Assembly: GCA_013791885.1 (NCBI GenBank)
Contig: VMSZ01000007.1
Location: 1-64,000, forward strand
DNA from: Sulfurimonas sp.
Lineage (GTDB): Bacteria; Campylobacterota; Campylobacteria; Campylobacterales; Sulfurimonadaceae
Direction of reading: 5' to 3'
Length of the DNA stretch: 64,000 nt
This document shows positions 5,687-55,859 of this stretch, piece after piece. Both the position numbers and the translations under genes were made by a program. Below the pieces are notes generated by a model, which saw only the letters and a program-made list of their open reading frames with translations, was not told the origin of the DNA and searched no databases. Position 1 is the first letter of the stretch; each line of letters opens with the position of its first letter.

Positions 5687-5700
5687 CTAGGGAGTTTTTA

Positions 5701-14359
<8,659 letters not shown>

Positions 14360-25275: not shown

Positions 25276-27273
25276 TTATTTCACCTCATACGTTTGCGGA
25301 TATGCAAAAATTGGCAGATAATTCGGGTCATAGTTCTCTGCGTTTTCATCTATAAGAGTCGGTACTTTGCCCACTCCCCAAAGAATTGTCTCCTCTGTAT
25401 GATAAGGTCTATCGGTAATCGTCTCGCCAAATTCGTATGCAGTGGAGTCTATGTGCGTAAAGCTCTCATTTGCATCTCTGTAGTATTTGTAAGTAAAAAT
25501 AGTTTTGCCAAAATAATCTTTTCCTTTTGTAAAACGCTGCGTTTTAACTATTTTTCTATACCCCTGCGCAGCTTTTAGCGACTCATCAAGCGTCGGGTAA
25601 AGAAGCGGCGCTTGGATGTAGTCTTCTTGGGTGAGGTACTCTTTTTTGGCGGTAAATTCTCGAATGAGGGAGAGTCTTGTTTCTTGAATCTCTCTGAGTT
25701 GTGCGACATTTTCAAAGGCTAAAGCAGGAAAATCAGCACTATATCCGTTTAATTTCGTAATACTGTTTTTAAGATACGCTTCCATGGAGCTTGGCATATC
25801 TCCGTAGAGGGAAGCCCCGACAACATGGTTCAAAAATTTTCGATACTCTCCGATGTTGGCATCACGGTTTATAGGGTCGCCTCTGTGCGCATTTCCTGCA
25901 GTCTCATCGTTTTTTGCAGAAACATTTTTTTCATATCCCAGATAATCCATCTCTCTCCAGCCTAAATCGCCCGCAAATTTGCGTGAAAATGACCAAACCG
26001 TGTCGATAGTATTGCCCGTTCCTGAGGTGAATTGAGCTGGTTCGAAGCTGTATTTTGAACTATGGCACCCTACGCACTGCATGAGTTCCTGGGGTGTTTG
26101 TCCTCGAAGTGATCCGTTTGCATCTTCTATAAACGCACTCATCCACCATCCTGCACCATTGTCTATCCACGTCTCTTTTTCATTGTAATAAAGTGGTGCA
26201 TTTTCCTCTTTTATAACAGCTTCGTTTGTGTAGTGCATAAACCATTTGAACATGTAGCGAATTTCTTTGACACGAGCAGAGCGTGTCCCGGGGAATTTTG
26301 AAGTTACTCCGTCTGCTTCTACGTCCACGTAATGAAGCGGATGTGCAAACTCTGTTTTAAGCGGAAAAAGACCTCTGTGGAGCGGTTCATCACTAGCTTT
26401 TCCTACATAATGTGTTACGTCATTTTGGATTCTGTCTTGGATAGCTTGTTCCAAAAGCTCTAGATTTTGCTTGTAGATATCAAGACTGAAAGTGCCGTTG
26501 CTCTCTTGCATAAACTTGGCATCAAGACGGATATAAATACCGCTCACACTTCCCGTATGCGGTGTAAAAATACCATAAGGCATAAAGTTTACGGCTCTCC
26601 ATCCTGTATTATGACCTTTTTGGTCGCTAAAGATGGCTTCATCACCATTTGTTGTTCGTACAAATCCGTCATCCTGAGCAGGCAAAGCGCTAGGGTTGAG
26701 TGCGGGAAAGAGACGAAATGCATCATCTTTTATGCCGCTATTGCTTACTTTGGCATCGCCTCTTTTTTTGTTGTATGCCGCTTGCCAGTTGTCGGTTTGG
26801 ATGTAGCTTTTCATGTCCCAAGCATCTGCATCGATGCCAAGTTTTGCAAAGGCTTCGTCTAACTTGTGCGGCGTTATAGTGTTTTCCCACGGGTTGATAT
26901 TTGGAGAGACGCTAAATCTGTCTGCAGGTCCAAAGGCGTATTCGAGTTGAAGATTGCCTATGTACTCATCAAAACCTGCTTGTGCCAAAGTACTTCCCAG
27001 CTTTTGTTTGGCCGCTGCGTTTGAGTGGCAAAAAAGACAGGCATTTTGTGTACCAAAAGAAGTTTCAATATAGCACTGCGCAGGGATATTTGCATAAGGA
27101 TTGCTAAAAAGAATGCGGCTGCGAAGTTCGCTTATCATGGGTGCCGGCGTAAACGTTGCGTTTTGTTCTTCATCAAGCGTTTGTGCTGTTGTATTATCGT
27201 CGGAGCCGCAACTTACAAAGGTTAATCCGCTTACAAAAAGTAAAATAAAAAGAGTGAAGGAGTATTTTTTCAT
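25276..27273 (-). CDS. Large lipoprotein with two c-type heme motifs
   Basis: 665 residues. A lipobox (F-V-S-C, Cys 22) ends the signal peptide, so the protein is expected to be lipid-anchored in the periplasm. C-L-F-C-H at residues 79-83 and C-V-G-C-H near residue 400 are the only two C-x-x-C-H motifs, far apart, suggesting a two-domain diheme protein. No named family recognised; the long stretches between the hemes lack known motifs. It follows the phoX-like gene by 73 bases on the same strand with a weak hairpin between, so cotranscription is likely. It may pass electrons, or process a substrate, alongside the phosphatase; that is inference. Confidence 0.7.
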   Translation of the reverse strand: MKKYSFTLFILLFVSGLTFVSCGSDDNTTAQTLDEEQNATFTPAPMISELRSRILFSNPYANIPAQCYIETSFGTQNACLFCHSNAAAKQKLGSTLAQAGFDEYIGNLQLEYAFGPADRFSVSPNINPWENTITPHKLDEAFAKLGIDADAWDMKSYIQTDNWQAAYNKKRGDAKVSNSGIKDDAFRLFPALNPSALPAQDDGFVRTTNGDEAIFSDQKGHNTGWRAVNFMPYGIFTPHTGSVSGIYIRLDAKFMQESNGTFSLDIYKQNLELLEQAIQDRIQNDVTHYVGKASDEPLHRGLFPLKTEFAHPLHYVDVEADGVTSKFPGTRSARVKEIRYMFKWFMHYTNEAVIKEENAPLYYNEKETWIDNGAGWWMSAFIEDANGSLRGQTPQELMQCVGCHSSKYSFEPAQFTSGTGNTIDTVWSFSRKFAGDLGWREMDYLGYEKNVSAKNDETAGNAHRGDPINRDANIGEYRKFLNHVVGASLYGDMPSSMEAYLKNSITKLNGYSADFPALAFENVAQLREIQETRLSLIREFTAKKEYLTQEDYIQAPLLYPTLDESLKAAQGYRKIVKTQRFTKGKDYFGKTIFTYKYYRDANESFTHIDSTAYEFGETITDRPYHTEETILWGVGKVPTLIDENAENYDPNYLPIFAYPQTYEVK

Positions 27274-27346: not shown

Positions 27347-29221
27347 TTATTTAAGACCCGGCATTCCGCCGATGTAACCGAAGTTTGCATCATATTTATC
27401 AATTTGTGCGCCAAGAACAGCTTTAAGGTCAGCCGGAGTTGTACCAGTAAAGTCCGCATGGTGCTGTGAGTTGCTCATGATGTATGAGTGACCATTCATG
27501 TTGTCAACTACTTGAAGACCTGTAGACTCTCCGCCGGCTACGACAGATGCGATTCTTGAGAGTTTTTTCGAATCAACATTGTATGCCCATACGAAGTTAT
27601 TCGTGTGCGTTCCACTGTCTTCTCCAACAAATAAAGTTCTCATTTTTTCAGAGAAAGCGATGTTGTCCGTGTTAGCGATTTTGTTTGGATTACAAGTATT
27701 TCCAACTGCATCAGCAGCAATTTCTTCCCCTACTAAACCAACAGGAGCCATAATGCTCACACCAACATATTCAGAGTCGATAGCATTGCCGTCTGTATCA
27801 TTTTGATCACTAGCAAGAGTAATCTCATACGTAGCACCACAGTTGTTTTTTACAACTCTGATATGGTCTGTTGCAAAACTGTCATCTTGGAGCATCCCCT
27901 TATCTTGGTAACTTATAGCCATATAAGCTTTTTTAGATGCTTCATCGATTGCGATACCTTCCATTTTGTTCCACTCAGTTGTAGCACCTAGCATAGAAGC
28001 ATAACGGCGTGGTTCAAGAAATGCAGCAGCTTTTTCCATGCCTGCTTTTAATTTCAAATACTCTTTACCCGTGTGTCCTGCTTTGATGATTGTATAACCA
28101 GTCGTATCAGCACCTTCACTTACTTCAGTTGGTGTAAGATAGTCAAAAATATCAGCAAATGTAAGAGTGTCTGCAAGTGTTTTAACTTCTGCTTCGGTAG
28201 CATGACCTAGTTTTACCCAGCTCATAGTCCCCTCGGCCGTTGTGCTTCCATCAGCATTCGTTTGTGTAAACTTTTGCGCATACAGTGTACCTGCAGAGAG
28301 GTCATTTACTGCATCAGCTACAAACATAACTAAAAAGACGTTCGTGCCGTCATCACCGTAAAGTGCAGTTTTACCATCGCCAAATACCTTAGCCATCTCC
28401 CAAGTACCTTTACCCATTGCATAACGTTTATTAAGAACGTATGAGCCATCAGCTTTCACTTCAACTTCTTGGTTGTATCCATAGTGATACGGATTTGCAG
28501 TTTTGGTGTTTTCCCAGTAAAGTTCCGTCATGGCTGTAATACCTTTTGCAGCAGTTCCCGCGTTTTTAGTACCACTGGCGTCTGTGTAGTAAAGATCATA
28601 ATCCTCTTCTCCGCCTAAGTGTGTGTTCCATGGAGTTTGTGAACCAAAACAGAAAATCCATCCGCCCTCAACGCTTGAGTGGTCAATTGCCTTTTGTTCA
28701 ACTGCTTTGAGTTTACCGTCTGCAGCTTGTTCGATGTTTGTAAGAAGCATATTCATAGGCATTCTTGAAGGTGCTTTTGAACCATCGGCAAGAATCCAAT
28801 CATACTCTAAGTGTGAAACCATAAAAAGTTTTCCATCCACATTTAAGAGTGAGTTTGCATCCGGAGTTTCAGCGATAACAGGCGCTCCGTCTTTGTCCAT
28901 CAGAGGTTCCATTTTGTAGTTATAAAGTTGCCCTGCAGCATTTGGATTTGTTCCTACTTTATCTTTAACACCAAAGAGTGTTGTGTACTCAAGAGGATAA
29001 TCCTTGTACTCTGTAGCACTTGTGTAAACACGCGCTTTAGCTGTAGAGAATGATCTGCTCATGTCAGCAATGTTTGATGGTGCTTCCATACCGATAAACT
29101 CTACTGCCGTTGCAGCCACTGCCTCTTGCACGGCAACAGCGTCCTCATCATTAGTGCCACAGCCAACAAAACCTAATCCAAGTACCGCAACAGCGGCAAG
29201 AGAGATCCATTTCTTTTTCAT
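27347..29221 (-). CDS. phoX: PhoX-type (DUF839) alkaline phosphatase, lipoprotein form
   Basis: 624 residues. The N-terminus is a lipoprotein signal (hydrophobic run, then F-V-G-C with Cys 21) and has no twin-arginine motif. The PhoX core shows Cys 191 followed by T-P-W-N-T-H-L-G-G-E-E (196-206), K-G-T-W-E-M-A, and E-P-R-R-Y-A-S-M-L-G-A-T-T-E-W-N-K-M-E-G, matching the metal-binding blocks of PhoX, which uses iron and calcium to hydrolyse phosphate monoesters. Usual PhoX enzymes are Tat-exported, so a Sec lipoprotein form is unusual. The upstream region carries six 11-bp spaced half-sites resembling a PHO box. Family call is firm, enzymatic activity inferred. Confidence 0.82.
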   Translation of the reverse strand: MKKKWISLAAVAVLGLGFVGCGTNDEDAVAVQEAVAATAVEFIGMEAPSNIADMSRSFSTAKARVYTSATEYKDYPLEYTTLFGVKDKVGTNPNAAGQLYNYKMEPLMDKDGAPVIAETPDANSLLNVDGKLFMVSHLEYDWILADGSKAPSRMPMNMLLTNIEQAADGKLKAVEQKAIDHSSVEGGWIFCFGSQTPWNTHLGGEEDYDLYYTDASGTKNAGTAAKGITAMTELYWENTKTANPYHYGYNQEVEVKADGSYVLNKRYAMGKGTWEMAKVFGDGKTALYGDDGTNVFLVMFVADAVNDLSAGTLYAQKFTQTNADGSTTAEGTMSWVKLGHATEAEVKTLADTLTFADIFDYLTPTEVSEGADTTGYTIIKAGHTGKEYLKLKAGMEKAAAFLEPRRYASMLGATTEWNKMEGIAIDEASKKAYMAISYQDKGMLQDDSFATDHIRVVKNNCGATYEITLASDQNDTDGNAIDSEYVGVSIMAPVGLVGEEIAADAVGNTCNPNKIANTDNIAFSEKMRTLFVGEDSGTHTNNFVWAYNVDSKKLSRIASVVAGGESTGLQVVDNMNGHSYIMSNSQHHADFTGTTPADLKAVLGAQIDKYDANFGYIGGMPGLK

Positions 29222-29269
29222 ATATGTCGTCCTTTATTTTTTAATGGACGAAGTTTAGACTTGAAGTAT

Positions 29270-29330
29270 TACGAAAATGAATCAATCCGATGACGAAGTA
29301 ACATCAAATTGGCAACATAAGAGTGACGAA
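29270..29330 (-). promoter_or_regulatory. Six-unit 11-bp repeat array, PHO box-like operator of phoX
   Basis: Read toward phoX on the minus strand, six hexamers start exactly every 11 bases: TTCGTC, TATGTT, TTTGAT, TTCGTC, ATTGAT and TTCGTA. All have G at the fourth place and a pyrimidine at the third. The array lies 49-109 bases before the phoX ATG, in the only intergenic space. PhoB-family regulators bind direct repeats with 11-bp period, so PhoB-like control under phosphate limitation is proposed. Confidence 0.6.
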
Positions 29331-29358
29331 AATTCGATCCTATGCCTGTAGCAGTATT

Positions 29359-30135
29359 TCAATGTAAAAATTTATACATGAGTATCGAAGCGGCCACCCC
29401 GACATTCAGGCTTCTGATTCCTTCTGCCATTTCTATGAGTACACAAAGATCACATGCAGATATTATCTCTTCACTCAAACCTTTTCCCTCAATCCCCATC
29501 AGAAGCACCCACTTTTTCGGAACTTCAAATTTTGCCAATGAAATAGACTCAGGGATTACCTCTGCGGCGACAACTGTATAGCCTAAATTTTTTAGCTCTA
29601 AAATAGTGTCAAAAATATTTTCATAGCTGTTTATTTTTAATTTGCTTGCATGTCCCATAGAAACGCGAAGAGCACGTCTTGAGTAAGGATGGGGTGAGTG
29701 TTTTGAGATAAGATAGGAGTTTACACCAAGAGCCGCCGCACTTCTTGCAATGGAACCGATGTTTTCATTTGAAGTTATGGCATCGAGCATAATAATGGTA
29801 TCGTCCATCTCACTCAAGGGTGTCAAAGCCGGTCTTATACCGTGCATCATACAGTTATGGTGCAGAGTATGTCCGACTATACTTTCAATAACTTTTTTCT
29901 CAGCCACATAAAGATTCGATATCTCTTTTTGTGCAATTAAATCTTCAAACTCTTCATAATACTCTTTTGTAGCAAGAATACTTTTAATTTCCAAAGATGT
30001 ATTTAAAAGCTCATTCACCACTTTTGGAGAGTCTGCGACAAAACTGTTGTCACCCTCAAAAGCATTCTCTCTGAACTTATGATAAATCTCTAATTCAGGC
30101 AGATTTATATCGTCGATTTTTATAAGATTTGTCAT
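29359..30135 (-). CDS. SpoU/TrmH family RNA methyltransferase
   Basis: 258 residues from the ATG at 30135 (M-T-N-L-I-K-I). An ATG at 30162 would add nine residues but lies inside a TGCTATAAT promoter element, so transcripts from that promoter would not contain it. The SPOUT core is complete: D-A-I-T-S-N-E-N-I-G-S-I-A-R-S (motif 1), L-M-G-I-E-G-K-G-L-S (motif 2) and E-M-A-E-G-I-R-S-L-N-V-G-V-A (motif 3). It is likely a tRNA or rRNA ribose methyltransferase, target unknown. It differs clearly from the other SpoU gene at 21454. Confidence 0.87.
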   Translation of the reverse strand: MTNLIKIDDINLPELEIYHKFRENAFEGDNSFVADSPKVVNELLNTSLEIKSILATKEYYEEFEDLIAQKEISNLYVAEKKVIESIVGHTLHHNCMMHGIRPALTPLSEMDDTIIMLDAITSNENIGSIARSAAALGVNSYLISKHSPHPYSRRALRVSMGHASKLKINSYENIFDTILELKNLGYTVVAAEVIPESISLAKFEVPKKWVLLMGIEGKGLSEEIISACDLCVLIEMAEGIRSLNVGVAASILMYKFLH

Positions 30136-30160
30136 GAAGTATTTTGTCTCTTTTTGCGTC

Positions 30161-30169
30161 ATTATAGCA
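30161..30169 (-). promoter_or_regulatory. Extended -10 promoter of the second SpoU gene
   Basis: TGCTATAAT on the minus strand is a consensus extended -10 element. It covers the upstream candidate start codon at 30162 and predicts a transcript start near 30154, some 20 bases before the ATG at 30135. No good -35 is seen, as expected for an extended -10. Confidence 0.6.
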
Positions 30170-55692: not shown

Positions 55693-55800
55693 ACCACCCC
55701 GGCACAAGGCTGAGATAGTTTAGTATTTGCTCATGGAATCAGCATAAGCTATACAGGAGAATCGTAAGGTCAATTATATATGCAAATAGTTACAAAAGTG
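55693..55800 (+). other. Structured non-coding spacer, possible RNA element
   Basis: After the 40-residue gene comes a GC-richer stretch (ACCACCCCGGCACAAGGC) with two competing pairings: GCTGA (55709-55713) with TCAGC (55739-55743) and ATAGTTTA (55715-55722) with TAAGCTAT (55745-55752). They interleave, so they either form a pseudoknot or exclude each other. No reading frame fits. The next gene starts at 55860. Confidence 0.35.
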
Positions 55801-55859
55801 TTAACAGACTTTTAACTCTTTTTAGTTACTATACAAAATCTATAATTTATAGGCTGAAT

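Follow-up and report, generated by a model that had tools for sequence, protein, structure and literature searches.

The repeat array upstream of phoX in this Sulfurimonas genome (2.52 Mb, 75 contigs) is very probably an operator-promoter of the PhoB (PHO-box) type, a known kind of switch that is here worn but conserved. The window that we analysed, 64,000 nucleotides of this genome, had been annotated initially as holding six hexamers at exact 11-bp steps. All six were found in place on the minus strand, where six 11-bp units run from 29331 to 29266 (Table 1). The entire array lies within the 137-bp spacer (29222-29358) between the stop codon of the upstream gene and phoX. Our reading draws on the rank of the array with an independently trained matrix, the matches of a model built from orthologous promoters, the conservation of the 11-bp step in relatives, and the offset to a predicted -10 element.

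The product of the downstream gene scored 57.5 bits against Pfam PF05787 (cut-off 24, partial coverage), making it a putative PhoX-family protein. Its nearest named relatives carry the label of Sulfurimonas or of related Campylobacterota, and comparison by sequence with solved structures gave no match. The gene that follows phoX (25276-27273, minus strand) codes for a protein of 665 aa that carries two CxxCH haem-binding motifs and matched neither Pfam nor NCBIfam.

Table 1. Features of the phoX promoter region in the window, and boxes before phosphate genes on contig C46.
Feature	Position	Strand	Sequence	Remarks
Units 1-2, distal PHO box	29331-29321, 29320-29310	minus	TTTCGTCACTC TTATGTTGCCA	unit scores -3.6, 2.5
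Units 3-4, middle PHO box	29309-29299, 29298-29288	minus	ATTTGATGTTA CTTCGTCATCG	within R2 match 29306-29250
Units 5-6, promoter-proximal PHO box	29287-29277, 29276-29266	minus	GATTGATTCAT TTTCGTAATAC	within R2 match 29306-29250
Predicted -10	29257-29252	minus	TAAACT	15 nt past G of GTAA in unit 6
phoX, putatively controlled gene	27347-29221	minus		624-aa PhoX-family lipoprotein-like protein
SpoU/TrmH-family RNA methyltransferase gene, upstream	29359-30162	minus		stop codon ends 28 bp before unit 1
pstS box (C46)			TTTCGTAATCC TTTTGTAACAT	
Porin box (C46)			TTTTGTAATCA TAATGTAACCA	
pstC box (C46)			GTTTGTAATAA TTATGTAACCA	
phoB2 box (C46)			TTCTGTAACCA TAATGATATAC	

The initial annotation considered the half-site to differ from TGTCA. 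This holds poorly, as the apparent difference arises mostly because the hexamer frame ends two bases early. With two bases added, units 1 to 6 read TTCGTCAC, TATGTTGC, TTTGATGT, TTCGTCAT, ATTGATTC and TTCGTAAT, and the core is a degenerate form of the TGTnAY type. Its first T is replaced by C in three units, and units 3 and 5 have GA where the core has GT. The array unit can be written TTCGTCAY/TTCGTAAY, a T-to-C variant of TGT(C/A)AY, and TTCGTCAC, TTCGTCAT and TTCGTAAT are each one substitution away from TGTCAY/TGTAAY. TTCGTAAY units are present too in the pstS boxes of the same genome and of its relatives; the usual box of the lineage is two copies of TTTGTAAYCAT. The array has at least two direct-repeat 11-bp units with a conserved core, as a PHO box should; an additional TTCGTC, starting at 29252, is off the 11-bp phase (23 bp). 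The array is not a wholly different half-site but a degenerate member of the lineage's TTTGTAAYCAT type.

To rank the array we used a unit matrix of 11-mers, built from 44 units in 22 pstS promoters taken from elsewhere in the genus and holding no phoX sequence. Across both strands of the 64-kb window, in the hexamer register, the five-unit array ranked 1 of 127,892 and the six-unit array 1 of 127,870. Shorter arrays ranked 4th (four units), 6th (three) and 85th (two), and the best single unit 143rd. The signal thus sits in the array and not in any single box. The best-scoring unit was unit 6 (6.5 bits); that no single 22-bp box is strong counts against the PHO-box reading. With a 41-nt matrix of box plus -10, trained on the pstS and phoB2 promoters of relatives, the promoter-proximal box came 11th of about 128,000 window positions. 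The best window match of that matrix was a PHO-like site with a good TATAAT at 55772-55842 (minus strand), in a spacer with no evident downstream minus-strand gene. Compared with 60 shuffles of the window's own phoX upstream sequence, the three-unit score was modest (z 2.4; reached by 2 of 60). The repeat could be a chance run within an A+T-rich spacer, given its degenerate units, its ordinary two-unit score and the many spacers that yield some regular run. We regard this as extremely unlikely, since the independently trained matrix places five and six units first, the orthologue model has the array as its top match in the genome, and the spacing is kept in relatives whose spacer has otherwise diverged.

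Two checks were set in advance: whether matching arrays occur before other phosphate genes, and whether the 11-bp spacing is retained in orthologous phoX promoters. Both turned out in favour of the PhoB-type operator that the initial annotation had suggested. For the spacing we compared 20 phoX promoters (19 relatives and the window) using the unit matrix, which carries no spacing information. At step 11 the mean best three-unit score was 8.4; at every other step from 7 to 16 it fell between -7.6 and -10.5. Spacing and units are conserved before the orthologous genes of the 19 relatives. In 15 aligned phoX promoters, the G noted initially at place 4 of each hexamer was the most conserved column of the family (best other column, 0.47), being present in all 15 for units 4, 5 and 6 and in 13 for unit 3; we fixed the register of the final unit manually on its GTAA-like core, which favours that unit and not the preceding three. 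Core positions in these promoters matched the window at 67-80%, and the remaining positions at 27-56%. Exact TGT[ACT]A pairs were few in phoX promoters, those of other phyla included, and the Campylobacterota had none at step 11, because their units are degenerate.

The placement of the array resembles that of a class II PhoB promoter, with the -10 itself being predicted. By an automatic rule, TANNNT lay 15 nt past the last-unit G in 14 of the 20 phoX promoters, while all other offsets from 6 to 25 together gave three occurrences. The pstS promoter of the same genome has TATACT at this 15-nt offset, and E. coli pstS has TATTTT there, with its sequence and its place before pstS confirmed. TAAACT is a weak -10, a point against the PHO-box reading, and a plain sigma-70 promoter scan of the phoX spacer found no promoter.

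The second check concerned the rest of the genome, where contig C46 carries genes for a TonB-dependent receptor, a PhoB-like regulator, a porin-like protein, PstS, two Ppk2 proteins, a Na/Pi symporter, a PiT-like transporter, PstC-PstA-PstB and PhoU (the porin and PiT genes are named by features of their sequences, no family match exceeding the cut-off). A model of two-unit pstS-type boxes (R1), made from 24 promoters of relatives, all pstS except one, had its three best genome matches before pstS (8e-8), pstC (1.6e-4) and the porin gene (3.4e-4), with E-values that are rough owing to a shortened calibration; its search did not report the phoX site. A second model (R2) was made from 15 phoX promoters, all of them from relatives and none from the window. 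In the 2.5-Mb genome it placed the window's phoX site first (E 0.0024, equally rough from a shortened calibration), followed in order by two sites on contig C43, pstS, phoB2, a site on contig C40 and the porin gene, with pstC 14th. The motif is shared with pstS, pstC, the porin-like gene and the phoB paralogue, phoB2.

Another regulator of the OmpR family, which binds direct repeats of 10-11 bp, might occupy the array and couple the gene to some non-phosphate signal. The OmpR-type DNA-binding domain was matched 15 times in the genome, and the binding mode is common to such regulators. However, because the same unit, step and -10 offset recur before pstS, pstC, porin and phoB2, the motif is tied to phosphate genes, and we consider a regulator of this other kind improbable.

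Further PHO-type promoters were seen elsewhere. Those on contig C43 (L200:2200-2265 and 5700-5765) stand ahead of the gene for a secreted repeat protein of 1104 aa and of a DUF3450-ExbB-ExbB-ExbD-TonB operon, and suggest a TonB uptake system under phosphate control. One on contig C67 (C67:10913-10950; L201:1412-1450) precedes phosphoesterase-like and patatin-like genes, named from sequence, that possibly serve phospholipid recycling under phosphate starvation. The 15-nt offset is present at both C43 sites and at the C67 site. On contig C47 (C47:11733-11764; L181:1501-1532), the gene for a 227-aa protein that has no Pfam match is preceded by a strong PHO box of two units, which TATAAT follows at the 15-nt offset.

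Which regulator would read these boxes? The genome has a PhoB-PhoR-like pair on contig C59 (L116:836-2898): a response regulator that has PhoB as its best NCBIfam match and a histidine kinase that has PhoR, both below the curated cut-offs. A second PhoB, without an adjacent kinase, lies beside the pst island on C46 (L113:4045-4740) and is 57% identical to the first. We call the C59 regulator PhoB1 and the orphan C46 regulator PhoB2; both score under the curated PhoB cut-off, a further point against the PHO-box reading. A degenerate repeat, CGCAACCAAAATGCTTCAACATTATGCTAGAAT, with a 15-nt offset to TAGAAT, lies before phoB1-phoR (L116:2899-2960) and is a possible autoregulatory box.

PhoB2 forms a separate clade (support 100/98), and this second regulator copy is a new clue: wherever our search found phoX within the genus, PhoB2 was there as well (26 of 26 genomes). 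We noticed the association during the work and had not set it as a hypothesis. In an even sample of 60 genomes, PhoB2 occurred in 14 of 14 with phoX and in 5 of 46 without, three of these five being 65-82% complete. Among sampled genomes at least 90% complete, it was present in 14 of 14 with phoX compared to 2 of 27 without (Fisher P 3.4e-9, a value that ignores kinship and is too small because the genomes are related and the counts not independent). All 12 phoX genomes outside the 60-genome sample, used as a check set, carry PhoB2, and in one genome (G086) it lies directly upstream of phoX. TGAnAT half-units were found in 7 of 7 phoB2 promoters checked, 7 of 60 phoX units and 1 of 48 pstS units. 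These observations favour a sharper form of the PHO-box explanation, namely that PhoB2 specifically reads the operator, with or instead of PhoB1, in a sub-regulon that contains phoX. Against it stand the relatedness of the genomes, the nearly alike recognition helices of PhoB1 and PhoB2, and the TGA excess, which falls short of significance when phoX units are taken by themselves (P 0.07) and was rejected as a mark of the phoX box. We give this form slightly less than an even chance.

Whichever PhoB homologue reads it, the geometry of the array fits the PhoB binding mode, with three putative boxes in line, and from these sequence data we infer PhoB binding, activation and a phosphate response of phoX. 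On phosphate starvation, the phosphorylated PhoB homologue would line up head to tail on the 11-bp units, of which each 22-bp box has two. Units 5-6 would serve in place of the -35 element, recruiting RNA polymerase to TAAACT as the -10, and the transcript would have a short leader ahead of phoX. The weak units would be filled cooperatively, so that phoX may come on at deeper starvation than pstS. Control in Sulfurimonas might even be split, with PhoB1-PhoR acting on the strong two-unit pst boxes and PhoB2, which tracks phoX, acting on long weak arrays, the phosphatase being on only at deeper starvation; this we regard as speculative and rather unlikely.

We came across no published account of PHO boxes from Sulfurimonas or from Epsilonproteobacteria in full-text literature that covers few subscription journals, so that their absence from the literature is only weakly indicated. 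The array yields a box model specific to the lineage, which recovers coherent promoters (pst, porin, phoB2, phoX, the TonB-ExbBD operon and the phosphoesterase gene), and it shows the extent to which a PHO box can drift with its spacing kept. Because the orphan PhoB2 and phoX are so tightly linked, the idea that two PhoB proteins divide the labour can be tested directly.

How does the array compare with known systems? The PhosS/PhosR system of C. jejuni (Wosten et al. 2006), in the same phylum, is similar in having a PhoB-type regulator of phosphate genes and phoX and an 11-bp step; its pho box reportedly has the consensus GTTTCNAAAANGTTTC. The initial annotation judged the array to be unlike this site, and we agree: this consensus was matched exactly nowhere in the genome, and its near matches numbered 93, fewer than the 157 of a reversed control, so that it was not enriched and was rejected as the box of the array. 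The E. coli PHO box consists of CTGTCAT units of 11 bp, on which phosphorylated PhoB binds head to tail in tandem and recruits sigma-70 RNA polymerase (PMC4415409). The phoX array shares with it the 11-bp direct repeats and, with E. coli pstS, the 15-nt offset from unit G to -10. In contrast, at the position of the E. coli C most units of this lineage carry A (TGTAAY), while the array mixes GTCAY and GTAAT, and CG replaces TG in three units. Also close are the pstS PHO boxes of the genus, which have the same unit core, 11-bp step, 15-nt -10 offset and TTCGTAAY units, but whereas these boxes have two strong units, the phoX promoters have up to six weaker ones, in which strong and weak alternate.
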